Notes under the pieces: model-generated
Database searches by the model: none
Told to the model about the DNA's origin: nothing
The model's input: the letters and a program-made list of their open reading frames with translations, nothing else
Shown here: in pieces, positions 9,203-57,830 of the stretch
Layout: each line of letters opens with the position of its first letter
Numbering within the stretch: position 1 is the stretch's first letter
Translations under genes and position numbers: made by a program
From: a virus
IMG/VR virus record: IMGVR_UViG_3300043444_000523
Location: 1-64,000 of that record
DNA: 64,000 nucleotides
Reading direction: 5' to 3' (one strand)

Positions 9203-9949
9203 ATGAGCGAGCTAATTAGTTTTGACAAAACGGCAATGAGCGAGCCATTTCAGCATGCGCCATGGGATGTTCGCGCAGATTGGCTTGAAGAACAAGGCCA
9301 AGGCGCTGAAGGTGAATTATCCAGGATGCCGTTCACTGCACAAATAGGGCCAGCGGTTTTTTCGGCTGTTGGCTTTTTGGGGCGTGGGAGCGGGAGCGGG
9401 CGCGGGAGCGGGCGCGGGAGCGGGCGCGGGATCGGGAGCGGGAGCGGGATCGGGAGCGGGAGCGGGCGCGGGAGCGGGAGCGGGAGCGGGAGCGGGAGCG
9501 GGCGCGGGATCTGGATCGGGAGCGGGAGCGGGAGCGGGAGCGGGAGCGGGAGCGGGAGCGGGAGCGGGCGCGGGAGCGGGAGCGGGCGCGGGAGCGGGAG
9601 CGGGCGCGGGAGCGGGAGCGGGCGCGGGAGCGGGAGCGGGCGCGGGGGCGGGAGCGGGATCGAACTTATACGGAGTTACGAAATGCAACACGGCAAAAAC
9701 TATTTGGTTCACTGCGGAGACTGGCACACGTTCGTTGGGAAATTTGTGCGATTCGTTTCGCCGTCGATTGCGGAATTCGAGTCTGTATCGAAAATCCGAG
9801 AAACCAGAAACGGAGACAATTGGAATAAACTGGCAAGCGGCGACCAATCCGCCCGCGATGCCTGCGATTATCAGCACTATACCACGCCGACATTCCTGCC
9901 CATCTCGATTGCCGTATTCGAGTGGGTTGGTGAACTGCCGCGTCGATGA
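9203..9949 (+). CDS. Gly-Ser/Gly-Arg repeat protein
   Basis: 248 aa with a strong ribosome site (GGAGGTGAC). The first 35 residues (FQHAPWDVRADWLEEQGQGAEGELSR) resemble the start of a TIGR02996 domain. Then comes a low-complexity (GS/GR)n block of about 95 residues made by a hexanucleotide array, and a C-terminal part with KNYLVHCGDWHTFVGK. Function unknown; the repeat probably forms a flexible linker and may vary in length. Confidence 0.6.
   Translation: MSELISFDKTAMSEPFQHAPWDVRADWLEEQGQGAEGELSRMPFTAQIGPAVFSAVGFLGRGSGSGRGSGRGSGRGIGSGSGIGSGSGRGSGSGSGSGSGRGIWIGSGSGSGSGSGSGSGSGRGSGSGRGSGSGRGSGSGRGSGSGRGGGSGIELIRSYEMQHGKNYLVHCGDWHTFVGKFVRFVSPSIAEFESVSKIRETRNGDNWNKLASGDQSARDACDYQHYTTPTFLPISIAVFEWVGELPRR
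9380..9660 (+). repeat. 6-bp in-frame tandem repeat (GGGAGC/GGGCGC)
   Basis: About 47 hexamer units with scattered ATC and TGG variants, wholly inside the 9203 gene. Because the unit is 6 bp, length changes keep the frame. Open frames in the other phases (Gly-Ala, Pro-Ala) are by-products. Confidence 0.95.
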
Positions 9950-12299: not shown

Positions 12300-13063
12300 A
12301 CCACGAATCCGCCTTCCTCGCCGCCATCCGCGACCAGCCCGCCGACGATTTCCGCCGACTCGTATATGCCGAGTACCTGGATGGGCAGGGCGATCCGAGA
12401 GGCGAACTGATACGGGTGCAGTGCGAGTTGGCGAAGATGACTTGCGACAAGTGTAACATGACTGGCACTTTCATAGCCGACAATGGAAAACATTACGTGA
12501 AATGCAGCACCTGCTGGCCTCTGCGAGAACGTGAAATCGAACTGTTCCATTTCCATTGGAACGAATGGGCCAAACCGTTTGACGCACTCAGACGGATCAA
12601 CCCGCTGCCGTTCACCGTCCGCTTCGTTCGCGGCTTCCCCGAAGTCTCGCTGACGATTAGTGCGTTCCTGGGTGAGCGGTGCGAATGGCACGTTCACACC
12701 GGCAATTCTCGCAGTGGCAATTTCAGCAAGTGCCTTTACTGCCACGACACCGGCTACCGCAACGGCCTCGCCGGTCCGCTGTTCGCCGCGTGCCCGGACA
12801 TCATGGCCGTGCGACTGACGGATCGGGAGCCAGATTTTGTTGACTGGTGGAACGCGGATCGGCCGCATCCAAACTCTTCTACTCTTCATCCAGAATCAGA
12901 ATTACCATTCGTGCTCTGGAAGAATCTCGACATAACTGGTCGTGATCGGTGTAAACAAGCCGACTCCCCCGCTCATGCTCACGCCGCCATGTCCGCCGCG
13001 TGCATGAAGCTGGGGCTGGAGTGGGCGGAACTGGAACACGAACGAAAGGCGGTGACGGCGTGA
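12296..13063 (+). CDS. TIGR02996 domain protein with zinc motifs
   Basis: 255 aa, ATGA start. Residues 1-45 (ESAFLAAIRDQPADDFRRLV, then YAEYLDGQGDPRGELIR) are a clear TIGR02996 domain, very common in Gemmata-type planctomycetes. A two-CxxC zinc ribbon (CDKCNMTG ... CSTC) and CLYCHDTG follow. The rest is unrecognised. This is the best host marker in the window. Confidence 0.8.
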   Translation: MNHESAFLAAIRDQPADDFRRLVYAEYLDGQGDPRGELIRVQCELAKMTCDKCNMTGTFIADNGKHYVKCSTCWPLREREIELFHFHWNEWAKPFDALRRINPLPFTVRFVRGFPEVSLTISAFLGERCEWHVHTGNSRSGNFSKCLYCHDTGYRNGLAGPLFAACPDIMAVRLTDREPDFVDWWNADRPHPNSSTLHPESELPFVLWKNLDITGRDRCKQADSPAHAHAAMSAACMKLGLEWAELEHERKAVTA

Positions 13064-15306: not shown

Positions 15307-15866
15307 TGTCACGCATCCTGATCTTACTGATCCTGTCCTGTCCCGCGTTCGCACAATCGCCGCCGTCAATCGAAAAACTCGTTGACGATCTTGCGGCACT
15401 ACGGGCGCAACGTCTGGACCTGGAGAAGAAAGAGGCCGAGAAGTCGGCAGAATTAAAGTCACGGCTGGCGGAGTTGCAGCGCCGCATCGACGATCTTGTC
15501 GGGCCGGTCAAGCCAGACACGAATGCGGAGTTCCTATCGGCGGTCAAAGCCGCTCTCGCAAAAGAATCGGACGCCGACAAGTTGTTACTGCCCAAACTGA
15601 TTAGCCTGTATCGGGCCGCATCGCAGACGGTATCGGCGGCAACGACCTGGGGCGCGTTATGGCAGGCAATGGCATCGACCGCGACACAACTTGGCATAGC
15701 TGGCGGCAAGTTGCCCAACGTACAAGCCGCTGTAAGCAAAGAGTTAATCGCACGTTTGCCGATCAACCCGCGTGAGAAACCGGCTGAGACTCTGACGGCG
15801 GATCATGCGAAACTACTGGCGTCTGAGTTTGCCCGCGTTGTCACCGTACTGGAGCAAGTGAAATAA
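15306..15866 (+). CDS. Secreted coiled-coil protein
   Basis: 186 aa. Signal peptide (SRILILLILSCPAFAQ) with AxA-type cleavage after residue 16. A coiled coil follows (VDDLAALRAQRLDLEKKEAE, then KSRLAELQRRIDDL), then a helical domain. Could be a spanin-like or periplasmic phage protein. No family recognised. Confidence 0.55.
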   Translation: MSRILILLILSCPAFAQSPPSIEKLVDDLAALRAQRLDLEKKEAEKSAELKSRLAELQRRIDDLVGPVKPDTNAEFLSAVKAALAKESDADKLLLPKLISLYRAASQTVSAATTWGALWQAMASTATQLGIAGGKLPNVQAAVSKELIARLPINPREKPAETLTADHAKLLASEFARVVTVLEQVK

Positions 15867-16477
15867 TGGAAAAACTCATAATTACATCAGAGCACGTTCG
15901 AGAAGGTAAATACATTGGAACGCCTGTCAATGACTGGCATGGCCACATTGAGATAGAAGCTAATCTTGGAATTGTGTTTTTCAACGGAAGCATAATTGCC
16001 AAAGGCAAGGTCGTTTCAAAAGCTGGTTCTGGAATCAAAGCCGGTGAGGGAATCGAAGCCGGTGAGGGAATCAAAGCCGGTGAGGGAATCAAAGCCGGTT
16101 GGGGAATCAAAGCCGGTGGTGGAATCAAAGCCGGTTGGGGAATCGAAGCCGGTGGTGGAATCAAAGCCGGTGAGGGAATCGAAGCCGGTGAGGGAATCAA
16201 AGCCGGTGAGGGAATCAAAGCCGGTGGTGGAATCAAAGCCGGTGGTGGAATCAAAGCCGGTGAGGGAATCGAAGCCGGTGGTGGAATCGAAGCCGGTTTA
16301 TCGATTGTATGCAAGTGGATTTTTTCAAAGTTTCGTATTTTTGCTGGTCTGTGTATATGGAAAAATCCTGACCAAAGCGAAATGGAGATTCGCGGACAGC
16401 TTCGCTCAGGCACAATAGCGTTTGGGACTCACGTTGTTCCAAGTACAAAAGAAGAACCAGAAAAGGCGGCTGTATGA
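15866..16477 (+). CDS. Hexapeptide-repeat protein (GxGI(K/E)A)
   Basis: 203 aa. The centre is about 15 copies of a six-residue unit G-(E/G/W)-G-I-(K/E)-A encoded by an 18-bp tandem repeat. A regular Ile every six residues suggests a beta-solenoid (left-handed beta-helix or bactofilin-like); this is inference. N-terminal part EKLIITSEHVREGKYIG and C-terminal part LSIVCKWIFSKFRIFAGLC are unique. Role unknown. Confidence 0.6.
   Translation: MEKLIITSEHVREGKYIGTPVNDWHGHIEIEANLGIVFFNGSIIAKGKVVSKAGSGIKAGEGIEAGEGIKAGEGIKAGWGIKAGGGIKAGWGIEAGGGIKAGEGIEAGEGIKAGEGIKAGGGIKAGGGIKAGEGIEAGGGIEAGLSIVCKWIFSKFRIFAGLCIWKNPDQSEMEIRGQLRSGTIAFGTHVVPSTKEEPEKAAV
16025..16299 (+). repeat. 18-bp in-frame tandem repeat
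   Basis: About 15 units of GGAATCAAAGCCGGTGAG with variation only at the K/E codon and the E/G/W codon. Entirely within the 15866 gene. Confidence 0.95.
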
Positions 16478-32700: not shown

Positions 32701-33891
32701 TTATCGACGGAAGTGCATAAGACGGTCAAGTTTGTCGAGCCCCATCTCAAATGATTTCCCAACAGCCTTTGCCTTCGTGTATTCTGTCTCAACGTCACCA
32801 GCCAGCCTCCTGGCAGCACTAGCAACATCCTTCACATCATTGAATATGCCAGTGACTTCCTCCTTCTTAGCCTCAAGCCACTTCTGCGCCATCTCGGCAG
32901 ACTCTTTGATCTTCTCAACTGTCGGCATCTTTTCTTTAACCAAAGCTACAAGGTCTTTGATCTCGTTGACCGTCTTGTTTGTTCCGTCATCCCCATTGGC
33001 AATCAGCTTCTCAAGTTCACCCTTGATCTGGCCAAGGAACTCAACTGCCTGCTCTGCCGGGTCTTTCTTTTTGTCGTCTCCGTAAGCACTGGCCCGAAAC
33101 GCCTCAAGCTGAACGCTCTTGGCCAAATCCCCGATAGCTTTGAACGCAGGATTCATCAACACCGCTGTTCCGCCAGACTCTTCTTTTTCAGATTTCCCGG
33201 TTTTGCCGAGTCCCTTGATCAGCCCCTCGATCCCTTTGGTCCATCCGAATGACGCCATCAGGCGAGCAGAAAACAGTATCATGTCTTTGATCAGGTTCCT
33301 TACCGTCTCACGAAGTTCCTTCATCACGTCCTTAACCGACTTGCCCTCTCCAATAAGCCCGCTCATCGTCCCTTTGACCATCTCTGCAAGGCCGCGTGAG
33401 AACGCCGTGAAAGAAGACCAAACATCTTTCATGATGTCGATGACGCCAACCATCACATCCTTGATCATTCTCAATGTCGGCATCATGCCATTGATCATGA
33501 TCGACATATCATCGAACGACTGAATCAACACATCGCCAATTGCCTGTGACAGCTCCTGGATCATCGGCTCAAGTTTACGCATGATCGGCAGCAACTTGTC
33601 CGACAAATCCTTTGTGACCTCTCTGGCCACATCGACCATTGGCCGCATTGCAACGCCAATCACGGCGTTCAGGTCTCTGAACTTCCTCCCAAGATCATCG
33701 ACAAGAGCCGGATCGATTGCTTTGACAAAGTGAGATGCAATGTCTGTGAGCTGCTCAAACGGAACAATCATCATCTTCATCTGACCGACGAATGTTCTCG
33801 TCATGTCAACGAACGGCTGTACGATGCTCGACATACCCGGAGTAGCAAACCCCGCAGCCATCGCGCCAGACATCTCTCCAAACGAAGCCAT
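32701..33891 (-). CDS. Tape measure-like protein
   Basis: 396 aa, mostly helical with hydrophobic patches: MIVPFEQLTDIASHFVKAID, DVAREVTKDLSDKLLPIMRK, MVGVIDIMKDVWSSFTAFSR, and a charged coiled tail. Gene order (chaperones upstream, tail-tip genes downstream) supports tape measure. It is short for the role, implying a short tail or a split function. Confidence 0.6.
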   Translation of the reverse strand: MASFGEMSGAMAAGFATPGMSSIVQPFVDMTRTFVGQMKMMIVPFEQLTDIASHFVKAIDPALVDDLGRKFRDLNAVIGVAMRPMVDVAREVTKDLSDKLLPIMRKLEPMIQELSQAIGDVLIQSFDDMSIMINGMMPTLRMIKDVMVGVIDIMKDVWSSFTAFSRGLAEMVKGTMSGLIGEGKSVKDVMKELRETVRNLIKDMILFSARLMASFGWTKGIEGLIKGLGKTGKSEKEESGGTAVLMNPAFKAIGDLAKSVQLEAFRASAYGDDKKKDPAEQAVEFLGQIKGELEKLIANGDDGTNKTVNEIKDLVALVKEKMPTVEKIKESAEMAQKWLEAKKEEVTGIFNDVKDVASAARRLAGDVETEYTKAKAVGKSFEMGLDKLDRLMHFRR

Positions 33892-34184
33892 TAAACACCT
33901 AATTCAAGTCGCTTGAGAACAGCAATCACATAGTCCCGGCTCACTCCCTTGGGGAGCAACACAGACGGCCCCTTCGGCTTGCCGTCTACAACCGGGTGAA
34001 TGATCCTGATCCGCATTTGCAGAAGCCTCCCGATGTTGTCACGGGAGTTATCAGGGACGAACTTCAGTCCCTTCGGGAACTCGATTCGTTCGCCGTCCGT
34101 CATGATCGCAAATGCCGGATCGCCGCTGCTGTCCACTTCGCTCAGGACTGCTTCGGCAACTGCTTGTTCATCTGAGAAAGACAT
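33891..34184 (-). CDS. Small tail-region protein, 97 aa
   Basis: ATG 34184 after GAGAGA. ERIEFPKGLKFVPDNSRDNI and LPKGVSRDYVIAVLKRLELG. It overlaps the end of the chaperone fusion by 43 nt. No family recognised. Confidence 0.5.
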   Translation of the reverse strand: MSFSDEQAVAEAVLSEVDSSGDPAFAIMTDGERIEFPKGLKFVPDNSRDNIGRLLQMRIRIIHPVVDGKPKGPSVLLPKGVSRDYVIAVLKRLELGV

Positions 34185-34903
34185 GCTTCTCTCACTTTCT
34201 TCATTTTGAAACACTTCACCAAATGATCGTAAGCATCCGCAAGATTCGGCGTATCATTGCTGACGCCGTAGTTTGCCAACTCTCCAGACTCTGCCATTGC
34301 AGAGAAAGCCGACAATCCATCACGATCCGGCATCTGGAGCACATTGACAAGTTTGTCGTAAATCCGGCAATTCTCTTTCCACGACGTATCGAAGAAGTTC
34401 CTTATGGCCTCTTCATTGGCTTTCTTGTCATTGCTCATGACGCAACCATAATTCTGCAACTGGCCGTGCATGGCCAACGTGGCAATCATGACGTATTGCC
34501 GATCTTTGGTGACATCACGCGGCACACTGAACGGGTCTTTATCGTTCTCGCCGGGATAAACATCAAAGCACTTGTGCTGGTCCAATCCAAGACCGCCGAT
34601 CATCTGAAGACCGCTCTTCGCCATGTCATCCTCTTCTTTCTGTTCTTCGTTCTTCTCGTTTTGCTTGTCTGGTTCCAACGGCGGAATCACCAGAGCACTT
34701 GCCATCTCTTTGTTCTTCTCAAGAACGCCGCTAATCGACTCGCTCATGCTGTTCAGCATCTGCCAAAGCTCAAACGTCCTTCGTGGAGTCTGATTCGCTA
34801 TCTCTTCGTCTGAGCAACTCAGTGGCCACGACTTCAGCTGGCAGAACGCCCTGTTCCAGTCCATCTTGAGGTCTTCCCTGTCCTCAAGTTTTGGGACACT
34901 CAC
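34142..34903 (-). CDS. Tail assembly chaperone, frameshift (T) part
   Basis: 253 aa if it starts at GTG 34903, but the frame is open back into the upstream gene and there is no ribosome site. It is best read as the -1 frameshift extension of the 34921 gene (GT-like fusion of about 421 aa). Acidic linker (PDKQNEKNEEQKEEDDMAKS), SESISGVLEKNKEMASALVI and helical segments. Expected to bind tape measure during tail assembly. Confidence 0.7.
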   Translation of the reverse strand: MSVPKLEDREDLKMDWNRAFCQLKSWPLSCSDEEIANQTPRRTFELWQMLNSMSESISGVLEKNKEMASALVIPPLEPDKQNEKNEEQKEEDDMAKSGLQMIGGLGLDQHKCFDVYPGENDKDPFSVPRDVTKDRQYVMIATLAMHGQLQNYGCVMSNDKKANEEAIRNFFDTSWKENCRIYDKLVNVLQMPDRDGLSAFSAMAESGELANYGVSNDTPNLADAYDHLVKCFKMKKVREACLSQMNKQLPKQS

Positions 34904-34933
34904 TGGCCCTGAATGTCCCCCTACTCTTTTGGG
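34893..34933 (-). promoter_or_regulatory. Programmed -1 ribosomal frameshift signal
   Basis: Slippery heptamer C CCA AAA (34933-34927) in the frame of the upstream gene, a 7-nt spacer, then a hairpin GGGACATTCA/TGAGTGTCCC (10 bp with one G-U, 7-nt loop). The zero-frame stop TAG is at 34923-34921, two codons after the heptamer. The -1 frame runs straight into the 34142 gene. This is the standard G/GT layout of tailed phages. Confidence 0.85.
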
Positions 34934-35406
34934 GGCGACGGCAATCCATTCTTCATGGTCAAAGAAATCTTGGCCCTCAGTTCCTCCGGCTTAGCCGCCA
35001 TCAACTCAATCGACTCGTCAAACGAAAGGCCAGTGAACAGAGAGACCAGAACAACGCTTCCCTCGAATATCACGCCAGACTCTTTCGGTGCGGCCTCGCC
35101 CCTGTCCGCCATGCCCATGATCTTCATCATGATTGGGCTTCCGAATGAATATGTCCCATTCTCAACACAATCATCGGAGAAAGAATTTTCCAAGGCATCG
35201 ACTTGCTCCTGCGTCATCAGCCCCATTTCTTTTTTCTTCTTCCACAGAACCAGTTTCACACCAAACGCGCGGTCGATCAGATACGACTCAACAGCGGAAA
35301 TGATTGACTTCCACTTCAATGGCATGATCTGGACAGTGCGCCCTTTGAACTCAATCTCCAAAGGCGATGCTTGCCCACCAAGACCGGCTGAAACGCTCGC
35401 AGACAT
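34921..35406 (-). CDS. Tail assembly chaperone, G part
   Basis: 161 aa. PLEIEFKGRTVQIMPLKWKS is a typical tail-chaperone opening; helices follow (EMGLMTQEQVDALENSFSDD). Ends SPPKE at the frameshift site. Most product should stop here, a minority extending into the fusion. Confidence 0.7.
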   Translation of the reverse strand: MSASVSAGLGGQASPLEIEFKGRTVQIMPLKWKSIISAVESYLIDRAFGVKLVLWKKKKEMGLMTQEQVDALENSFSDDCVENGTYSFGSPIMMKIMGMADRGEAAPKESGVIFEGSVVLVSLFTGLSFDESIELMAAKPEELRAKISLTMKNGLPSPPKE

Positions 35407-35414
35407 AAGGCCCC

Positions 35415-35879
35415 TTAGAAGGTAACTGAGAATGATCCGTTGGATTCAATCGACACAGAAGCACGAGCCACGGCATTGCTTGTAGCAGTGCTAAGCCGAA
35501 TATCGGCAACACGGAATGTGATCGTGAAACTTGAACCGCCGCCGCCAAGAGCAAATACCATCGAAATGCTCTGCCCTTGAGTTAATCCAAGAGAACTGTT
35601 GTAAGGCCCTTCGACAGTGCCCTTACACGCGAAAATGCCAGCCTCATTCGACTGATAACCGCTAGATGTAAAATTCGTTGTCGGAATGATTTCTGCTGGG
35701 AATGACAAGTCAACCTTGTCCATCGGCTGAGAAGTTGCGCTCCAAGTCCAGCTACTCGCCTTTCCCGGATAAAAGGTGCCAAGCAGAAGAAGAAACGGCA
35801 GCAGCAAGATTAGATAATCAAGCCACTTATCAGCGTCTTTCAAAAACTGAAATAATTCAAACATTTCTTCTCCTATCAC
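35415..35879 (-). CDS. Tail protein candidate with hydrophobic N-terminus
   Basis: 154 aa. Begins with a hydrophobic helix (WLDYLILLLPFLLLLGTFYP), unusual for a tube protein. The rest is beta-rich (TSQPMDKVDLSFPAEIIPTT, SSFTITFRVADIRL) and sits where the tail tube gene is expected. Tail tube or tail-associated; uncertain. Confidence 0.5.
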   Translation of the reverse strand: MIGEEMFELFQFLKDADKWLDYLILLLPFLLLLGTFYPGKASSWTWSATSQPMDKVDLSFPAEIIPTTNFTSSGYQSNEAGIFACKGTVEGPYNSSLGLTQGQSISMVFALGGGGSSFTITFRVADIRLSTATSNAVARASVSIESNGSFSVTF

Positions 35880-42843: not shown

Positions 42844-45800
42844 CTATTGCCGTTGCGGCTTGAATCCATTAGCCGGACTTGACTGCTTCCCTGATTGAGC
42901 AGCAACATTCGGCTTATCGCCAAGAGAATTCCGAATCGCCTTCCTTGCGCCAGCAGCAACAAGAGCGACCAAAATTGACTTTGTTAGAGCCCTTCTCTGT
43001 GTTCCAGGATCGCCAAGCAACAAGTTTCCGAACTTCTTCAACGGCGAGTCTTTGCCAAAGTTGATTAACTTCTTTTGGTCTGGATGAGCCCGCTGAATAA
43101 ACGAAGGCGGGATGTAATCCCCTTCGCCAAACTTCTGCCCCTCAAGCGTGATGCCGCCCTTCGGAGCACGCGGCCCCTTGGCCATGCTCTTCGGCATGTC
43201 CTGCGGAATCCGCATCAGCAACTTCCGGTTCAACTCGTGCAATTCTTCAGGCGTTGCATTCGAGATGAAGTCGCCGACATGGCCAGAGAGAGTCTCATGC
43301 AAGTGCTGCTGCAACTCTTTCTGAACTTCAGGAGGAGCATCGGCAATGAAGTCACTCACAGTTTGCTTGAGTTCAGGATCGAGTCGCTTTGGGACCGATG
43401 GCGATACTCCAAAAGCCTTACCAAGTCGCTTTTTGACACTCTCAGACATCTTCTGCCTAATTGCGCCGCCCATCGTCTTTGGCTGAGTTGGGATCGGCTT
43501 GCGACCGTCGCCCTCTTGGGCCTTCTTGAGTTTGGCCTTCTCTTCAGGAGTCGCCGACTCCAGAACTTCGGACGGAATGAATTGACCGCCGATGTACTTC
43601 TTGCCTTGAAGAGTCACACCACCAACCGGAGCGCGTTCGGCTGCGTAGGGAACCGGCCGTGTCTTTGATTGATCGGTAACTGCACCAAGTCCTGCACCGC
43701 CAGCAGCACCCATCGTCCCGCCAATGGTAGCACCAGCAAGTGAGCCAACTGGACCAAGGATGCTCCCACCCACAGCGCCAGCAGCAGCACCGCCAGCACC
43801 TCCCATTAACCCACCTTTGGCAAGTCCTTTGAAGAAGTAAGGGACTGGAGACTTCTTCCCCTTGTTCTCAACCGGCGTGTCCTTCACACCAGCCGCCTTC
43901 AGTCCCTTCTCTGCGACCCAACCGACTGGGCCAGCCACTTTGCCGCCCATCTTTGAGCCGAGTTTCTCACCGAGGAATCCGCCTGCAATTCCGCCGACTG
44001 TAGAAGTGATCGGGGCCGCTGGTCCTCCGAGCATACCCAAGGTAGCACCAGCTGCGCCACCGCCGATTGCGCCAACAACTCCGCCAGCGTTGTTGTTCAT
44101 CTTGGGCTTCGGGACTTCGTACCGGACTGGATTCTTCTTCCCGGCAGATACAACCGCGCCTTTCATCTTTGGCATGGATTTCACGTTCCTTAGCCACGGA
44201 GGATCAGCGTTCCCTGAATCACCTTGGGCAACAGCTGCAGCAGCCGGAGTCGCAGCCGGTGCAACATCCTTCGGCTTCCTCACATACTTCCTCTTCGGTT
44301 TCGGACTGTCCTGAACAGCAGTTGCAGCCGGAGCCTGTGCCGGATCGGCAACAACCGCTTTCCCAGGTGTTGCATTGGCGTTGATTGAACCAAGCAAATC
44401 GTCTCCGTCCGTGCCAGCTGCTTTCGGAGGAGGAGCACTTCTTCGTCCAGCGCCTGGGGGCGTTGTCTTTGGAGTCGGCTTATTTGCCGTAGGCGGATTG
44501 CCTTTGCCAGCAACTGGAACATCGCCGTAAAGGCCAGCCAAAATGTCTTTGCCAAGCATCTCTGTCGCAGGTTGTCCAGTATTCCCGCCGTTCATCGGAC
44601 CAGGGAAACCTCCCTGTGTTCCTGTCGGCGGAGTAGAAGGCTGACCGGCCAATCGCGCTGGGAATCCAGGCTGAACTCCTCCAGTGTCAGCTGGCAATGC
44701 TTCCATTCCAAGCCTTGACGGGAACCCTGGCTGTGCGCCATTGCTCGCTGCTGGAGTCGGCTTAACTGCCCCAGGAATTACCTTGTTCCTTTCAATCCTC
44801 TTTGCCCTATCTTGTGCCCGCTGAGCCACAGATTGCCTTGCTTGAGAACCCATACCCAACATTGCGCCGCCGCCAATTCCGGTTACACTACCGGCAATAG
44901 CGCCTTGTTTGATTGCCGTTCCAAGCCTTGATCGATACTCTTCGTCGGTCTCTCCAGGCTGTTGCCCATCAGCCATAATTCCGCTGCTGATACCAGTCAG
45001 CGCAGCACCGCTCAGTCCGCCAAGTGCCGATTGCTTCAGCACTTCGCTGGTTCGTGGGCTTTCACGCCGGAATTTCTGAACTGCACGAGACATCCTCTGG
45101 CCAAGTGATCTGTTGACCGGCGCATACTCTGTCGCCTGATTCTGAGTCGGTCCCATAGCTTTCCCGATCTGGTCTGCGGCCACCATAGAGCCGACTTGAG
45201 CGGCCCCTTGTTGGACAGCCGGATTACGAACTGCCTTGCCAGCACCTTTCGCAATCGCACCGCCTGCCTTGGCCAACGCTGCGCCGAAGCTGTACTGCTC
45301 GGCATCTTTGGTTTTCCCAAGTGCAACGTCGAACTTGCCATACTGCACCGGCTTCGCTTGCCCCATGCACATCGACTTCTGATCCGGCGTCATGGACCGA
45401 GCAAACGACGGCGGGATATGATGGCCAGCCTTAAAGTGATGGCCACCAATCTCGATGCCGCCTTTCGGGGCACGAAGAGAAGAGGCGTCGTATTTACCAA
45501 CGGTCTTTCCTGCACCTGGGAAGAGTTCAGCGTTGACTTTTTTCATAAACTCGGCCCCCTCTTTCCCTGTGACAATTCTCGTTCCAACAGGCTTCGAAGG
45601 GCGAATCATAAACCGTTCTCTTGGGGTCAGACCAGCAGTAGTGCCAATTGCCATCCCCCTACTAATCAAGGCAGGCACTTGCTCTTTGCTGAAATTGAGT
45701 TTCTTGGTCAGACTCTTGATGAGTTCTTGATCGCCCTTCTCTGGGTCGATTTTCGTCAATTGATGCGTGATTCTGTCGGCCCGTTCCTTGTTTTTCGACG

Positions 45801-47265
45801 CCCTATCAAACGCAATCTTGGCCAATGTGATCCTTCGGTCTGCCGCCATCCCCTTCATCACGCCAGCGTATTCCTTCGGCCCTGCCGGACTCACTGGCGC
45901 ACCGAAAGACATGCCAGCGTAATTCGCCGGTTGGCCAGATACTATCGAGTCTGCAATCGCGTCGATGTTATTGCCGCCTGTATACTTCGCTGGCTTGCCT
46001 TTGCACGAACTCGTCAATGGCCGATTCTTGGCCGGATCAAATCCAGACACCTCCTTGGTCATTCGGTCAATCTCTGCCTGACGAGCAGCGTTCTTCTGCT
46101 TTTGCATCGCTGCCGGATCAGCAGTTGGCTTGGCCGCAACAGACGTGCCCTTGGATGATTGCAAATCACGCGGCAACGGCTCTTTGAAACTCAAGAAGCC
46201 GCGCTGCGGAACGCCAACAGTCGCACCGGCGTACTTCGTCGGCTTCGTCTTGCCTGCAAACTGCCTTACTTTGGTTTCTTGGTTGTTCGGCAACATCGCC
46301 CGACGCGCCATGATGGCGTCGTTCTTCTGCTGCTTCATCGCCCCACGAACCGCCGCTGCCGGAACTCCTGCTGCCTGAGCAAGAGTCGTCTTCCCAGCCG
46401 CTTGTGCAACCGCATCTGCCTTGGACGGAATCGCCGAGGCTCTTGTATTGGCCAACTTCTGTGCCGCTTCACCAACCGGAGTCTGCCTGAACTGACCTGC
46501 GGCCTCGTGCGCTGCACCGGCCAAGATGCGAACCGGGTTCTGTTTCAACGCTTGCCCGGTTCGCTTCAGCCGCTCCAGTTTGGCTTGTGCTTTTAGGCCA
46601 GGGGATACGTATTGTTGCGCCTCGTACATCGCCACATAGTTCGGCGGGATCGGCTGGCCGGATTTGAACCTGTATCCGCCGATTTGGATGCCGCCTTGGG
46701 GGGCAACGCATCGTTTGCCGACAGTTTTCTTCTCCATGGCGCGAACGATGCTCGAATACGGCATCGAATTGGCCTGATACGACACGATGCCCATCGGCAG
46801 GAACGGGTCGCGCTTCAAAAGCGCAACGCCAGTGACCTTGTTCGAGTTCGGATAGAAGTCAACACTGCGGAACGGGTATTTTTTCGTGTCTTCCCAGTGT
46901 TCTTTGTCGTAGTACAACGTGGCCAAGACTGCCGGAGTACCCTTTGGCCCGAATGTGCCAACTTTCGCATTGCGAGCAACGCCAACAATGTCAGGCTGGA
47001 GCTTTTCAGGGTACGAAGGGTCGCTTTGTTGCCGATGGCCGATGGTCATGATCGGCGGAACGCCGTATTCGGCCTCTCGCACATTGATCTGGTCCGCAAT
47101 GAGCGGCAAATCCTGCGCAGTGACCACTATGTCAACTTCTTCCCCGTTTGGCCCTCGCGTTTTCCGCGTGTGCGGCACGAAGATCGGCACATTCTCCACT
47201 CGAATGTACCGATTCGGGTCATTGATCTTGGCCAGGAAGTCGAGAGTTGGGTCGTTGGTTGCCAT
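42844..47265 (-). CDS. Giant head protein: Mu-I-like maturation domain + repeated modules + Gly-zipper regions
   Basis: 1473 aa from ATG 47265 at a CCCTATAA motif. The N-terminus (VENVPIFVPHTRKTRGPNGE, PPIMTIGHRQQSDPSYPEKL, YPFRSVDFYPNSNKVTGVAL) follows Mu gpI-like head maturation proteins. Four copies of an AP(K/V/Q)GG(I/V) module lie near nt 46.6-46.7, 45.4-45.5, 43.5-43.6 and 43.1-43.2 kb. Several PxxYAG/PxxY motifs occur between. Two long Gly/Ala-rich zipper stretches (GGAAGATLGMLGGPAAPITS; GGAGGAAAGAVGGSILGPVG) could insert in membrane. Perhaps a polyprotein whose pieces act in maturation and DNA ejection; inference. Confidence 0.65.
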   Translation of the reverse strand: MATNDPTLDFLAKINDPNRYIRVENVPIFVPHTRKTRGPNGEEVDIVVTAQDLPLIADQINVREAEYGVPPIMTIGHRQQSDPSYPEKLQPDIVGVARNAKVGTFGPKGTPAVLATLYYDKEHWEDTKKYPFRSVDFYPNSNKVTGVALLKRDPFLPMGIVSYQANSMPYSSIVRAMEKKTVGKRCVAPQGGIQIGGYRFKSGQPIPPNYVAMYEAQQYVSPGLKAQAKLERLKRTGQALKQNPVRILAGAAHEAAGQFRQTPVGEAAQKLANTRASAIPSKADAVAQAAGKTTLAQAAGVPAAAVRGAMKQQKNDAIMARRAMLPNNQETKVRQFAGKTKPTKYAGATVGVPQRGFLSFKEPLPRDLQSSKGTSVAAKPTADPAAMQKQKNAARQAEIDRMTKEVSGFDPAKNRPLTSSCKGKPAKYTGGNNIDAIADSIVSGQPANYAGMSFGAPVSPAGPKEYAGVMKGMAADRRITLAKIAFDRASKNKERADRITHQLTKIDPEKGDQELIKSLTKKLNFSKEQVPALISRGMAIGTTAGLTPRERFMIRPSKPVGTRIVTGKEGAEFMKKVNAELFPGAGKTVGKYDASSLRAPKGGIEIGGHHFKAGHHIPPSFARSMTPDQKSMCMGQAKPVQYGKFDVALGKTKDAEQYSFGAALAKAGGAIAKGAGKAVRNPAVQQGAAQVGSMVAADQIGKAMGPTQNQATEYAPVNRSLGQRMSRAVQKFRRESPRTSEVLKQSALGGLSGAALTGISSGIMADGQQPGETDEEYRSRLGTAIKQGAIAGSVTGIGGGAMLGMGSQARQSVAQRAQDRAKRIERNKVIPGAVKPTPAASNGAQPGFPSRLGMEALPADTGGVQPGFPARLAGQPSTPPTGTQGGFPGPMNGGNTGQPATEMLGKDILAGLYGDVPVAGKGNPPTANKPTPKTTPPGAGRRSAPPPKAAGTDGDDLLGSINANATPGKAVVADPAQAPAATAVQDSPKPKRKYVRKPKDVAPAATPAAAAVAQGDSGNADPPWLRNVKSMPKMKGAVVSAGKKNPVRYEVPKPKMNNNAGGVVGAIGGGAAGATLGMLGGPAAPITSTVGGIAGGFLGEKLGSKMGGKVAGPVGWVAEKGLKAAGVKDTPVENKGKKSPVPYFFKGLAKGGLMGGAGGAAAGAVGGSILGPVGSLAGATIGGTMGAAGGAGLGAVTDQSKTRPVPYAAERAPVGGVTLQGKKYIGGQFIPSEVLESATPEEKAKLKKAQEGDGRKPIPTQPKTMGGAIRQKMSESVKKRLGKAFGVSPSVPKRLDPELKQTVSDFIADAPPEVQKELQQHLHETLSGHVGDFISNATPEELHELNRKLLMRIPQDMPKSMAKGPRAPKGGITLEGQKFGEGDYIPPSFIQRAHPDQKKLINFGKDSPLKKFGNLLLGDPGTQRRALTKSILVALVAAGARKAIRNSLGDKPNVAAQSGKQSSPANGFKPQRQ

Positions 47266-47278
47266 ATCCTTTATAGGG
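47262..47278 (-). promoter_or_regulatory. CCCTATAA start motif, copy 3
   Basis: CCCTATAAAGGATATGG on the - strand; its ATG starts the 1473-aa gene. Confidence 0.55.
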
Positions 47279-47313
47279 GGATGCAATATGGCAACCGAAC
47301 GACGGATGATGTG

Positions 47314-48019: not shown

Positions 48020-51000
48020 TTACACCAGATTGTTCTTTTTCAACACAGCCCAGCACTTCGGGAATTTTGCTTTGGCTACATTTGGCTTGGTTATGGCAAG
48101 ACGAACATACTCTGCCCACCCCTCGTGAGCATTAGACATTGCATATGAACTTAGCGGAGCTTTTTTCTCGTCTTCGTGCAGGATTTCAATAACCCATGCT
48201 TTTTTCCAATCAAAATCACTGCTGTAGGACAAATCGCCCAATTTGCCGTCAATAATATGGCCAATCTCATGGGCATAAACGCTGGACATTCTTGTGTCCG
48301 CAAGTTTCCCTTCGTGTTTTATACTCGGCGCGCCGTCAAGAAACATGCCGCCAGAACCAACCTCGACGGCTCCTCCAACTCTACCGTCATTATCCGTCGC
48401 TGTGGATTTTGATATATCTTCAGAAAGCCTCTTTGATGTTGGATAGAACTTCACATGCCGAAGGTTCTTCAAAAGCGAGCCTTTCATCTTTGGATTCATA
48501 CTGGAAATCGTCTTAACAATTCCAGACTTGAACTCGCTCTTGAGGCCATTCGGAATATCCTTGTCTTTGTCTATTGATGAATGAATCGCTGACACAAGAT
48601 CATTGCTGTTCTTTGGATTGGCGGAAATGATATTCCCTTTTATCCACCTGTTTGGGTTTTCTGAAACAGGAGGGCGTGCAAATGCCGCAATTACACCGCC
48701 TACAGCCGCTGACGCTACCGCAGACTTACCAGCAACAACCAGTGCGTGTTCTACAGAATCGCCTAATGCCATATTGCGTACAAATACAAGAGCCCCAGCA
48801 GTAGCAGCACTTCCAAAAGCGCCTTTCAAAAAGTTCACAGCCCTTGCAGTAACAACGCTGTGCCCGTGAGTCATTCCTGGAACTTTTTCTTTTCTAACAA
48901 CAGACGATCTTTTCCCAGGCGACAATGCCGCCTTTTCGCTCGAACTTGCTCTGGCAATCGCTTCTTTGGGTATAAACTCTCCGCCCTTGAAGTGCTCTCC
49001 GCCAACTTCGATTCCGCCCTTGGGGGCATGGACAGCCTCGTATCCAATTGCCTGATTCATAATCGGTGCAATTTGCGCTGATTTCTGGGAGTACGACTCC
49101 AGCGCCCTTGCAACAGCCGGTGCTAACGCGGACGCCTCTGCATTTGCCAGTTCTTCAAGGGCCACTTCGGACACTTGAATGCCACTACGCCGAATGCGGT
49201 TCTTGATCTTGTCCCGAATCCATAGCGATACAGCGCCTTCGCTGTGGCTGTCCGAAGACGGTTTATTGAGCAAATGAACCAACGCATCTCCAGCCACGTT
49301 CTTGGCGACATTTTTGATGTGTGCCCTCAAGTCTTCAGTCGGCTTGGATTCCGGCATTGGCTTTTCGCCGTCGATGCCAGACATGCTGAGCATCAGCGGC
49401 GCATACCGCTCTGCCGCTTCAGATGCCTCGCTCACCAAGTCTTCCTCAGTGGCCTCGATTCCGGCCTCTTTCATGGCCTCTTGCATCTTGCCCTTGAACA
49501 ACTCGACAAGGTATTCGTGCATCACCGCCGAGGCCGGAACTTCATCCTGATAACCGACCATCCACTCGTCATCCTGGCTCGTTACTAAGCTGCCGCCCTT
49601 CTTTTTCATGAGCACGTCGAATAGCTTCGGGATGAGCATCACGCCCTTCTTGATGCCCAACACAGCCAAGTCCATCGTGGCCTGTGTCGCTGCCCGAAGA
49701 GCGAGTCTCTTCAAAGCATCTTTCTCGTTTGGAACCCTAGAAGACTTACCTGTCACCGGGTCTATCACGAGTTTTGTTTCATTAGGATCGATGCCAAGAG
49801 AGATTGCTGTCTTATCAAACGCTCCCTGTGCCAACGGGCTCTTGGCGATGTCTCGCCTCAGTTTCTTAGGGTCTCTGATCATCCGTTCCGCGATCTTGCC
49901 AGCGTACTTGGCCGTCTCGTGAGCCGCCTTCGGCACGCCTCTGAGGCTCTGCTTCTTGTCAAACGCCTTCGACCGATTGCCGGAATACTGGTCGATGATC
50001 CGAAGCGCCATCGTGGCCACGGTGTCTTCGCCAGTGGCTGTAACTTCGCGCTCACGTTGATAAGCCCGACCACGGGCACGGGCATACTCATGCGGCGTTA
50101 GGCTACCGAATTCCTTGATCTTGTTCATCACATATGGCCGAAGTTTGAAGTCCGTCTTCAGCCAACGCTCGGTCTCTTGGATCAAGTCATACTCGTTGCC
50201 CATCAGGATCGGCTCATCAGGCTTCGGAGCCCGAATCCCAGCCTGTTCCAGCATGTCATCGACAGTGGCCGGTTTGTCTTCTTGTTTTTCAGACCTGTCC
50301 ATGCCGGTTTGCTGCGTCTCAGGCTTCTTGCCATGATCCTGCGGCCTGGAAGCAGGCATCTCCGGCACTTTCTCGCCTGAAATCGCCTTCTGGCCAGCCA
50401 ATGCCGCCTTCTCCTCCGGCGATGCGCGGGCAATCACAGAGCCAGGAATAAACTGGCCACCTTCGTAGTGCTTACCGGAAATGTCAATACCACCCACCGG
50501 CGCACGAGTCGCCTTGTACTCAATCGTGAACTCATCATCAGACACCGCCAAATACTCGATCACAAGGCCATCGTTGGCCATCGACACCTGCCCACCCTCT
50601 TCAGGCGGGGCCGGATCAAGAGGAACACTCGTCCCGTCAGCCAAACGAATGTAATTCCCGTCTTCCGTCTCGTCTGTGTTCTCTTCGCCCATGATTTCTT
50701 CAAGTATCTGATCAACCGTCATATCGCTGGCCTCTTCGGCCACTTGCTCGTCCCGCTGGACCTGTTGCTCTTGCTGCTCTTGGGCCGCTTGCTCCTGGGC
50801 TTGCTGTTCCTGTTGTTCCGCTTGCTGCTGCTCTGCGGCTTGTTCTTGGCCCTGTTGCTGCACTTGGGCCTCTTGATCTTGCGGCATCTCTTGAGGCTGG
50901 CCCTCTGCTGGAACTTGCATCTGTTGTTGCGCAGCTGCTTGCTGTTGCTGGGCCTGCATTTGCTGCTGCATCTGGGCTTGTTGGGCCTCCATCTGAATCT

Positions 51001-52459
51001 GCGTTTGCGCCTTGAGCAACTCAATCTGCGTCTCTGTTTGAACCTTGGACTGAACCTTAAGCAACATCTCCTGGTTAAGAATTTCATCGTCAGGCTCAGG
51101 AGCCTTGAGGCCAGCGTTGGCCAAAAGCTCGTCTTTCCTGACAGAGCCGCCCATCTGAAACACCGCCGAAGCATTCTTCAACTTCGCATCGGCCTTTGGA
51201 TCATCAACATCAAATACAAATCTGACCCTGAAGTTGGCCTTGGGGAAATTCCATCGCTGAATTACAGGGATATAATCTTCAGAAAAAGTGTCGGCCAAAT
51301 TGTTTGCGTCAAACTTCAGGATGCGCCATTTAGTGTTCTCATGGAACTGAGATACTCCGCTGCCAAGTCCCGTTGCCTCTGCATTGGCGCTCAAAGTCTG
51401 GCCGATGATCAATCGCTCGATGTGCTGCTCAAAGTATTCCTTGACGATATTGATCAGGATGTTGATGCCGCCGCCTTCAAACCGAAGCAAATCAACACCG
51501 GCGGTATCCTTGCTCTGCCCACGGGTCTTCGGCATTGCGATGGCGTATCGTTCGCCGACGTTTTGGGCTGCGGCCTCGGCTTCTGCCTTGGAATTTGGAT
51601 TGCCTTCATCATAGTAGAACACCATGATGCCACCGATGCTCATCTTCTTCAGGTGGTTGATCGCCCACCCAAGCATCTCGTCACGAAGCTGGAAATTCCA
51701 GTAAATCTGAGACCGCAAGCCAACGCCATGCACGCCGCCTGACATCTCGCCTTCAAAGAAGTCGGCGTCAACGCACTGGTGTTTGTGGATGATGAACCGC
51801 TGCCGCCACTTCGGGTCTTTCAGCCGAAGCACCATCGACCTTTGATCCGAGAAAAGGTCTTCTTCCTTGACGATGCCGCGTTCTTTCAACGTCCGGCCAA
51901 TAGAGTGATTGACCATCACCCTTGGAACATCGTCATGGCCGTACAGGATTTTGTCGCCATTGACCGGCTTGTGCCCGACGACTCCAAGCCGATTCTGGCC
52001 ATCAATCGGAATCGCGCCCCACTTGACCTGATTCGCGTATCGGCCATACCAGATCGCCCAAGCCAGCTGCCAAACGAACGGCGTCCACCGCGACGTATTG
52101 GCCACGATCTTCGACATATCATCAGTTACGGCCTTTTGAATCTTGCTCTTTTGGTTCTCAGGCTCAAGATGCCAGCCAAGAGCCGAAAGCTGAAGGAATC
52201 TCTCGTTCATGCATCCCAAAACGAACGCATCACGAAGCATCGCCAGCGCGTTTTCGCGGCTGTGCTTCGTGGCCTCGTCATGAGTCCATCGATGAGACCG
52301 AGTTACGGATTGATAAATTGATGAGAATGTTCTGTGCTGCGGCAACAGAAAGCCGCCCTCGTCTTCGATGGGTCGGCCATTGTGATCAAGCAGCCGAAGC
52401 GGTCCACTCCCGTTTCGGCTCATCAGGCCATTAACGTCTGGTTCTGGTAGCAGTGCCAT
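48020..52459 (-). CDS. Giant portal protein (DUF935-like) with modules and C-terminal HExxH peptidase-like domain
   Basis: 1479 aa, three times a normal portal. The first ~450 residues match DUF935/Mu gp29-like portals (QLSALGWHLEPENQ; WTPFVWQLAWAIWYGRYANQ; DADFFEGEMSGG). Then a Gln-rich coil (QQMQAQQQQAAAQQQMQVPA). AP-GGI modules lie at about nt 50.4-50.5 and 48.9-49.0 kb, with helical domains around them. The last ~60 residues contain VYAHEIGHIIDGKLG and NAHEGWAEYVRLAI, an HExxH...E zincin of the anthrax lethal factor-like type. It starts at a CCCTATAA motif. Confidence 0.7.
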   Translation of the reverse strand: MALLPEPDVNGLMSRNGSGPLRLLDHNGRPIEDEGGFLLPQHRTFSSIYQSVTRSHRWTHDEATKHSRENALAMLRDAFVLGCMNERFLQLSALGWHLEPENQKSKIQKAVTDDMSKIVANTSRWTPFVWQLAWAIWYGRYANQVKWGAIPIDGQNRLGVVGHKPVNGDKILYGHDDVPRVMVNHSIGRTLKERGIVKEEDLFSDQRSMVLRLKDPKWRQRFIIHKHQCVDADFFEGEMSGGVHGVGLRSQIYWNFQLRDEMLGWAINHLKKMSIGGIMVFYYDEGNPNSKAEAEAAAQNVGERYAIAMPKTRGQSKDTAGVDLLRFEGGGINILINIVKEYFEQHIERLIIGQTLSANAEATGLGSGVSQFHENTKWRILKFDANNLADTFSEDYIPVIQRWNFPKANFRVRFVFDVDDPKADAKLKNASAVFQMGGSVRKDELLANAGLKAPEPDDEILNQEMLLKVQSKVQTETQIELLKAQTQIQMEAQQAQMQQQMQAQQQQAAAQQQMQVPAEGQPQEMPQDQEAQVQQQGQEQAAEQQQAEQQEQQAQEQAAQEQQEQQVQRDEQVAEEASDMTVDQILEEIMGEENTDETEDGNYIRLADGTSVPLDPAPPEEGGQVSMANDGLVIEYLAVSDDEFTIEYKATRAPVGGIDISGKHYEGGQFIPGSVIARASPEEKAALAGQKAISGEKVPEMPASRPQDHGKKPETQQTGMDRSEKQEDKPATVDDMLEQAGIRAPKPDEPILMGNEYDLIQETERWLKTDFKLRPYVMNKIKEFGSLTPHEYARARGRAYQREREVTATGEDTVATMALRIIDQYSGNRSKAFDKKQSLRGVPKAAHETAKYAGKIAERMIRDPKKLRRDIAKSPLAQGAFDKTAISLGIDPNETKLVIDPVTGKSSRVPNEKDALKRLALRAATQATMDLAVLGIKKGVMLIPKLFDVLMKKKGGSLVTSQDDEWMVGYQDEVPASAVMHEYLVELFKGKMQEAMKEAGIEATEEDLVSEASEAAERYAPLMLSMSGIDGEKPMPESKPTEDLRAHIKNVAKNVAGDALVHLLNKPSSDSHSEGAVSLWIRDKIKNRIRRSGIQVSEVALEELANAEASALAPAVARALESYSQKSAQIAPIMNQAIGYEAVHAPKGGIEVGGEHFKGGEFIPKEAIARASSSEKAALSPGKRSSVVRKEKVPGMTHGHSVVTARAVNFLKGAFGSAATAGALVFVRNMALGDSVEHALVVAGKSAVASAAVGGVIAAFARPPVSENPNRWIKGNIISANPKNSNDLVSAIHSSIDKDKDIPNGLKSEFKSGIVKTISSMNPKMKGSLLKNLRHVKFYPTSKRLSEDISKSTATDNDGRVGGAVEVGSGGMFLDGAPSIKHEGKLADTRMSSVYAHEIGHIIDGKLGDLSYSSDFDWKKAWVIEILHEDEKKAPLSSYAMSNAHEGWAEYVRLAITKPNVAKAKFPKCWAVLKKNNLV
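49061..49083. repeat. Dispersed palindrome, copy 9 (coding, degenerate)
   Basis: Arms AATCGGTGCAA and TTGCGCTGATT with two mismatches. Read as SAQIAPI in the portal gene; the amino acids are kept although the symmetry has drifted. Confidence 0.85.
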
Positions 52460-56111: not shown

Positions 56112-57185
56112 TTAGCCCGCGACTTTTGGGGCCGGTTTACTGACGGCCCAAGCCCTCAAATTGAGGGCAGCGTTTCGGTCGGCATTTGTGGAGTGCCCGC
56201 AATGTTTGCAGACAAACTCAGACTGGCTCTTTCGGTTGGCACGCTCGCAGTGGCCGCAGACATGGCACGTCTGGGAACTGTATCGCGGGTCAACCAAGAC
56301 TACGGACACGCCTGCCCGTCGGGCCTTGTACTCCACAAACTGCCGAAGCTGAAAGAAACTCCAGTTGCCAAGTCGTCGCCGGAAACGCCTAGAAGCCGTT
56401 TGCTCACAACGGTCACGCAAACCGGAGAGGTTCTCCAGAGCGATACCGATGCCGAGTGTCTTGGCTTTGCCGACAAGACTCTTGCTGATGGCGTGGTTTA
56501 CCCATGCTTGATAGCGGGACTGCCGCCCCGCCATCCGCTTCAACCGTCGCTTGGCAGACTTGGTTCCTTTCCGTTGGTACTGCTTACGGGCTGTCATCCG
56601 GCGCTTGCGGTTTCGTTCGACACCCGCACCGGAGAACGATTCCCCGGTGGAGTCGGTAGCAATCTGGACAATGCCAAAGTCACAACCCAAGTATTCGGTA
56701 ACCGGCTGTGGGTCGGAAACGGTCGCCTTGACTTGAACATGCAGAAAGTAACCGCCATCGCGTTTGACAAGTGCAGCGCTGGTCGGAACCTTCCCCGCAA
56801 GCGCGGTTCGCTGAAAGTCGCCAAGTTGGGTCGTCAGTCGATGCCGCCCATGCAACAGGGTCAGGCTGAAAGTCCAGTCGGATTCTCGGAAGGAAAAGAT
56901 TCGAGCATCGTAGTTCACGCTCGTAGGAGCAAATCGGGAGAGGTCTTTTACGGCGGCAACGCGACCGATGGCACGAACGGCCAGATTCGCCGACAGCCCG
57001 AACGCAGTCCGCGTTTCGCGGTAGGCCAATTTGTGCAGAGCGAGATGTCCTTTAGTCTCTGTCTCTGCCGCACGACGAACCAAGTGATTGCACGCCGCAG
57101 CGAAAGCCACAAGTGTAACGTCGATTTCAACCGCCTGTTCAGCGGTCGGAACCAGCTTGCAACAGATGGTACGGATGGCTTCCAT
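56112..57185 (-). CDS. tnpB: TnpB, RNA-guided nuclease of IS200/IS605
   Basis: 357 aa. RuvC-like acidic residues: D169 in YLGCDFGIVQ, E in GIALENLSGLRD, D in STNADRNAALN. Zinc finger CHVCGH ... CKHCGH between the last two. All catalytic landmarks are intact. TnpB cuts DNA guided by an omega RNA from the element end, here expected to overlap the 56070-56200 end. It starts directly next to the tnpA stop. Confidence 0.9.
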   Translation of the reverse strand: MEAIRTICCKLVPTAEQAVEIDVTLVAFAAACNHLVRRAAETETKGHLALHKLAYRETRTAFGLSANLAVRAIGRVAAVKDLSRFAPTSVNYDARIFSFRESDWTFSLTLLHGRHRLTTQLGDFQRTALAGKVPTSAALVKRDGGYFLHVQVKATVSDPQPVTEYLGCDFGIVQIATDSTGESFSGAGVERNRKRRMTARKQYQRKGTKSAKRRLKRMAGRQSRYQAWVNHAISKSLVGKAKTLGIGIALENLSGLRDRCEQTASRRFRRRLGNWSFFQLRQFVEYKARRAGVSVVLVDPRYSSQTCHVCGHCERANRKSQSEFVCKHCGHSTNADRNAALNLRAWAVSKPAPKVAG

Positions 57186-57578
57186 TCAGACACCCTTCTG
57201 GTTCTCGATGTACTGCTTGATAACGGCCAGAGGCGCGCCGCCAACAGTCGCGACAAAGTAGGAGTTCGTCCAGAGCGATGGCAACCGGCTACGCAACGCT
57301 GGGTACTCCGTGCGCAGGAACCGGGACGAACGGCCCTTGACCAACTTTATCAGCCGGTGGATTCCGAACTGTGGATCGACTTCAACGAGCAGATGTACGT
57401 GATCGGGCATCACTTCCATCTCGATCAGTTCCGAACGGGTTTCAAGGATCACTTCCCGAATCAGATTCTTGAGCCGTTCATCAACGCCGTCGATCAAGAC
57501 CTTGCGACGATACTTGGGGCAGAAAACAACGTGGTACTTGCAGCAGTAGGACACGTTGTTATTGCTCTTGAGCCTCAT
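57186..57578 (-). CDS. tnpA: TnpA, Y1 (HUH) transposase of IS200/IS605
   Basis: 130 aa from ATG 57578 after CAGGA. SYCCKYHVVFCPKYRRKVL at the start, MPDHVHLLVEV (HUH motif), and catalytic Tyr in LAVIKQYIENQ. Normal length and intact. It catalyses single-strand transposition. Confidence 0.92.
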   Translation of the reverse strand: MRLKSNNNVSYCCKYHVVFCPKYRRKVLIDGVDERLKNLIREVILETRSELIEMEVMPDHVHLLVEVDPQFGIHRLIKLVKGRSSRFLRTEYPALRSRLPSLWTNSYFVATVGGAPLAVIKQYIENQKGV

Positions 57579-57646
57579 TCCTGTATTATACACGTCCGAG
57601 ATGTCGAATGCCACCTCAGTAGCGTGGATTCGCCGTCTCCATTCCT

Positions 57647-57667
57647 CCCCATGCCTGAAGGCAGGGG
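57647..57667. repeat. IS200/IS605 end hairpin, tnpA side
   Basis: CCCC, bulged A, TGCC, loop TGAA, GGCA, GGGG, about 70 bp upstream of tnpA. Confidence 0.85.
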
Positions 57668-57684
57668 TTTCTTGGAGACATTTC

Positions 57685-57780
57685 ATGAACAGCAAAGCCA
57701 AATTTTGGTTTGTGTTCGCTATTGTGTCTTCATGCTTTTGTGCGTTCTTATTCTCAATCTACTCATGGAAAGTCTGGTAG
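57685..57780 (+). CDS. Small membrane peptide, 31 aa
   Basis: ATG after TTGGAGACATTTC. NSKAKFWFVFAIVSSCFCAF and LFSIYSWKVW: one transmembrane helix. Its TAG lies within the left inverted repeat of the next TnpB unit. Probably a phage gene caught between two insertions. Confidence 0.45.
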   Translation: MNSKAKFWFVFAIVSSCFCAFLFSIYSWKVW

Positions 57781-57799
57781 TGGCTCAACATGGTGTTGA
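57776..57799 (+). repeat. 24-bp inverted repeat, left copy
   Basis: GGTAGTGGCTCAACATGG then TGTTGA. Its exact reverse complement is at 58992-59015. Confidence 0.95.
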
Positions 57800-57830
57800 C
57801 AACCTGGACGACCCTGATAGAGTTATCCTT

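Follow-up and report, generated by a model that had tools for sequence, protein, structure and literature searches.

Are the two adjacent minus-strand open reading frames that precede a tape-measure-like gene in this phage genome two separate genes, or do they encode one short protein and one fusion made by ribosomes that change frame between them? The sequence belongs to a 104,736-base IMG/VR virus record, and its first 64,000 nucleotides, hereafter the window, were analysed here. The junction between the two frames is very probably a programmed -1 ribosomal frameshift site of the lambda G/GT type, where we infer the slipping, its rate and the chaperone function of the products from the sequence. 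The mechanism is a known one, and this is a new example of it in an undescribed phage lineage. The features of the locus are listed in Table 1.

Table 1. Coordinates of the putative G/GT-type frameshift locus and its neighbours in the window.
Feature	Position	Strand	Evidence
Tail-tube candidate, 154 aa, just upstream of G	35415..35879	-	Weak match to PHROG 1407 'major tail protein'
G-like gene, 161 aa, zero frame, ATG with Shine-Dalgarno AAGGGG	34921..35406	-	ORF, position, L006 homologue
Slippery heptamer C CCA AAA	34927..34933	-	In phase with the G gene; sequence and L006 4505-4511
Spacer GAGTAGG (7 nt), within which the zero-frame stop TAG lies (34923-34921)	34920..34926	-	Sequence
Stimulatory hairpin (predicted), 7-nt loop 34909-34903	34893..34919	-	RNA folds, random-position test, L006 stem
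T-like frame of 263 codons counted from the slip, then a stop codon; GT-type fusion PK-RVGG (predicted)	34142..34933	-	Open frame, protein-level conservation
GTG in the T frame, rival independent start, not conserved	34901..34903	-	CAG in L006
First T-frame ATG common to L006 (MDWNRAFCQLK)	34862..34864	-	Without conserved Shine-Dalgarno; conserved coding sequence upstream
Internal ATG (MAKS...), candidate additional start within T for its C-terminal part	34622..34624	-	GAGG-type ribosome site in both genomes
107-aa gene following T, whose end it overlaps, and preceding the tape measure gene	33891..34214	-	Conserved in L006
Tape-measure-like gene, 396 aa	32701..33891	-	PHROG 305 (E 2.1e-7), PHROG 4197

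On the minus strand, the G-like gene ends with CCC CCA AAA GAG TAG, which contains a heptamer of the form X XXY YYZ in the zero-frame phase, with the stop codon as the second codon past it. The heptamer differs in its last base only from the AAG-ending form, which is cited as highly prone to shifting. The distance from the heptamer to the downstream structure is 7 nt, within the commonly studied range of 5-9 nt (PMC5009743). The predicted structure is a 10-bp stem in which GGGACATTCA (34919-34910) pairs with TGAGTGTCCC (34902-34893); its minimum free energy is -16.3 kcal/mol (z -2.5), and 2 of 200 shuffled sequences fold equally well. Ribosomes that slipped would read PKRVGGHSGPVSVPKLEDREDLKMDWNRAF..., a frame that is open to 34142. 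An earlier note made from the window had described the heptamer in its correct phase, the spacer, stem and loop lengths and the stop two codons on, all of which are borne out; it had also described a long open -1 frame, which is present, at 263 codons instead of the 250 given there.

Slippery heptamers alone are not special in this genome. In the 25 minus-strand genes (9,346 codons), 20 in-phase XXXYYYZ heptamers were counted, six of them of the usual slippery types, compared with 27 and 16 in the two phases used as controls, which shows no overall enrichment. The unusual feature is the placement of the heptamer, 13 nt before the stop codon. Moreover, among 3,000 positions drawn at random from the same strand, only 0.37% have a hairpin as stable as this one starting 5-9 nt on. 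The chance of meeting such a heptamer and hairpin together at one or other of the 25 gene ends is estimated at about 1e-3, with conservation not counted.

To follow the locus beyond the window, relatives were searched for by protein scans of viral contigs, which returned nothing beyond one essentially identical contig (3300047554_000629), with the same sequence at the frameshift site, and one diverged relative, the 74-kb record IMGVR_UViG_3300044511_000090 (L006), found via the genes on the tape measure side. The protein scan of genome contigs found zero relatives, and the G-like and T-like proteins had no significant tblastn hit in 50,697 phage records. The evidence for conservation therefore comes from a single independent relative, L006, whose G-like protein and -1 product share 66% and 58% identity, respectively, with those of the window.

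In L006, the G-like gene ends with GGG TTG CCG TCG CCC CCA AAA GCG ATG GGG GAC AGC CGG GGA TAA. The heptamer lies at the homologous codons (GLPSPPK), and TTG CCG TCG CCC CCA AAA is identical in the two genomes at all synonymous positions. The zero-frame stop has shifted downstream, and the position of the slip site is unchanged. Conservation of the heptamer in relatives had been named beforehand as a check on which the frameshift could fail, and the heptamer is kept in L006. In addition, both the 104.7-kb record and the 74-kb record of L006 contain CCCCCAAAAG a single time, at the slip site. A strong stem, GGGGACAG/CTGTCCCC, begins 7-8 nt past the L006 heptamer; since the two genomes have identical outer pairs, covariation carries little information about the hairpin. 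A second C CCA AAA is present in the window on the 3' arm of the hairpin (34895-34889, minus strand), in the phase of the T frame; it was set aside, as L006 has GTC CCC AAA C and no heptamer there.

The -1 frame is also conserved as protein ahead of its first shared ATG. Over the last 12 codons before this ATG, SVPKLEDREDLK in the window and SVPKLEDRKELQ in L006 differ by 11 base changes, and 9 of 12 residues are identical; the SVPKLEDR block in particular is conserved as protein, with mostly silent changes. When the changes in the 12-codon block, which was picked after inspection as the ungapped part, were permuted, 0 of 20,000 permutations reached the observed BLOSUM score and 0.12% reached the observed identity. 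Conservation is weaker than in this block over the seven codons next to the slip. No ATG, GTG or TTG upstream of the SVPKLEDR block is shared by the window and L006: GTG 34903 of the window is CAG in L006, and GTG 4460 of L006, which lies upstream of its heptamer, is GAG in the window. Frameshifting is thus the sole entry route into this frame that both genomes have. These substitutions indicate selection on the T frame ahead of every start codon that the two genomes have in common.

The frameshift may be real and still be accompanied by an independent start at ATG 34624, which would yield a third product of about 160 aa corresponding to the C-terminal part of T. This ATG (4793 in L006) is preceded in both genomes by GAGG-type ribosome sites at suitable distance (-5.8 and -5.9 kcal/mol), and it follows an acidic linker of variable length, after which sequence conservation resumes at MAKS. 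The GAGG, however, is explicable by conserved Glu-Glu codons alone, and the linker is in frame and free of stops in both genomes despite its difference in length, which favours continuous translation through it. An additional start here is possible, if rather unlikely.

Far less probable is that T is a separate gene, with an independent or coupled start at GTG 34903 or ATG 34864, next to which the heptamer and hairpin are coincidental. GTG 34903 lies 17 nt past the G stop, begins exactly at the conserved SVPKLEDR block and is preceded at 12 nt by GGGGGA, for which a pairing energy of -8.4 kcal/mol was computed. The claim of the earlier note that a ribosome site is missing from the downstream gene was therefore too strong for the window. 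What stands of that claim is that the tract is buried in the hairpin stem and that the GTG is absent from L006; the spacing between GGGGGA and GTG is also long. ATG 34864 lacks a conserved ribosome site (-4.9 vs -1.1) and has conserved coding sequence upstream of it. Moreover, the separate-gene reading leaves the conservation of both the heptamer and the hairpin unexplained.

Sequencing or assembly errors within one longer gene commonly appear as two neighbouring open reading frames in different frames, as found here, but the identical second contig and the same frame arrangement in the diverged L006 make such an error extremely improbable. Slippage of the transcribing polymerase on CCCCCAAAA, for which short homopolymer runs do exist at the slip site, is likewise of negligible probability, as polymerase slippage generally calls for longer runs than the five C and four A found here and would have no need of a stable hairpin at ribosomal distance.

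The position of the gene pair is that of G/GT. On the minus strand, the gene order is a head-tail adaptor (PHROG 195, E 3e-11), two small genes, a 163-aa gene, the 154-aa gene, G, T, the 107-aa gene and the tape measure gene, so that tail-tube-like and tape-measure-like genes flank the pair and the G/GT-type location claimed earlier is confirmed. The pair thus lies between tail tube and tape measure, with a weak tail-tube candidate (the PHROG 1407 match of the 154-aa gene has an E value of 0.093 in the window and 0.0027 in L006) and with the 107-aa gene intervening. The tape measure protein has a weak match to the tape measure of Streptomyces phage Triumph (E 4e-3), the sole match in the phage collection. 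Between two small tail genes just upstream of G, L006 carries a LAGLIDADG-type homing endonuclease gene (PF14528; 2394-3440, minus strand) that is absent from the window.

Gene order fits the earlier naming of G and T as tail chaperone genes, and support from sequence profiles is absent: neither protein has a chaperone match among the PHROG, Pfam or NCBIfam profiles. Known tail assembly chaperone families are themselves very divergent, and the missing match therefore weakens the chaperone identity without excluding it. The structure models of G and T are of low confidence; that of G (pLDDT 54) has an N-terminal beta-hairpin followed by helices. Among the 50 viral fold matches listed for the G model, seven are called tail assembly or pre-tape-measure chaperones, the best with an E value of 0.41; the search gave no viral match at E<=0.001 and no useful PDB match. 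The putative tail chaperone role of G and T is suggested by gene position and recoding, with the weak structural match as supportive only.

In lambda, the tape measure is bound by gpG, and a -1 slip by a minority of ribosomes yields gpGT, whose T part recruits the tail tube (PMC5009743); the -1 shift is widely conserved among long-tailed phages (PMC5009743). The present locus resembles lambda G/GT in the -1 direction, the heptamer near the end of the upstream gene, the location before the tape measure gene and the long fusion (PMC5009743). It differs in the use of C CCA AAA with a simple 10-bp hairpin, in a T part of 263 codons, in the presence of one more gene (107 aa) separating T from the tape measure gene, and in having no similarity to known chaperone profiles. 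In Streptomyces phage Triumph (Janusvirus), genes 18 and 19 are a chaperone and a frameshifted chaperone annotated as a joined gene, and the order of tail terminator, major tail protein, chaperone, frameshifted chaperone and tape measure matches the order found here apart from the 107-aa gene. The Triumph chaperones have no detectable relation to G and T (hhalign probability 0.1), and the sequence of the slip region differs. Counterpart -1 frameshifting is also described in the archaeal siphoviruses HCTV-1, -2, -5 and HVTV-1 of Haloarcula (PMC5009743), with XXXYYYZ g-t shift sites given for HCTV-1, -2 and -5 (PMC5009743); these viruses differ from the phage studied here in having archaeal hosts.

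We propose that ribosomes translating the G-like gene would be paused by the hairpin while CCA and AAA occupy the decoding sites. Most would then terminate and release the short protein, and a minority would slip back by one base, from C CCA AAA to CCC AAA, bypass the TAG and read on in the T frame. The few slipping ribosomes would produce a fusion with the junction ...SPPK-RVGGHSG.... By analogy with lambda, coating of the tape measure protein may fall to the short part and recruitment of tail-tube subunits to the T part. The likely correct annotation of the gene pair is accordingly that of one short protein and one fusion, not of two separate genes. Such a reading extends the tail-chaperone frameshift to a phage lineage whose chaperones escape all profile libraries, suggesting that a recoding signal together with gene order can find chaperones that are missed by sequence search.

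The phage probably infects planctomycete bacteria. A Gemmata-like host is hinted at by a TIGR02996 domain in a phage gene (window 12305-12433, plus strand; 64.7 bits, over the cut-off), as the name of the model, rpt_mate_G_obs, refers to Gemmata obscuriglobus; a weaker second copy lies at 9257-9328. The more extended picture, namely a G/GT lineage without detectable relatives among described chaperones, probably with Gemmata-like planctomycete hosts, whose -1 frame gives both the fusion and a third protein from the conserved internal start, is improbable when taken as a whole.

Other parts of the window also carry features of note. A region at 56112-59006 contains two divergently oriented TnpB-like genes (Cas12f1-like TNB domain), one of which adjoins an IS200-type TnpA (57186-57701, minus strand); within the phage, this stretch is a mobile element region that has TnpB twice. 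A genome scan using the IS200 TnpA kept 80 loci, among which planctomycetes were absent. Two repeat-rich phage open reading frames, at 9203-9949 and 15866-16477 on the plus strand, have Gly-Ser/Arg runs and an EAGEGIKAG-like repeat. Finally, a Mu-type portal domain (PF06074, E 1.2e-35) was found in a 1,479-aa open reading frame with one of 1,480 aa nearby (48020-52459 and 42844-47286, respectively, both on the minus strand), which together contain six copies of a APKGGIEVGGEHFKGGEFIP-like motif, possibly linkers or processing sites of virion polyproteins.
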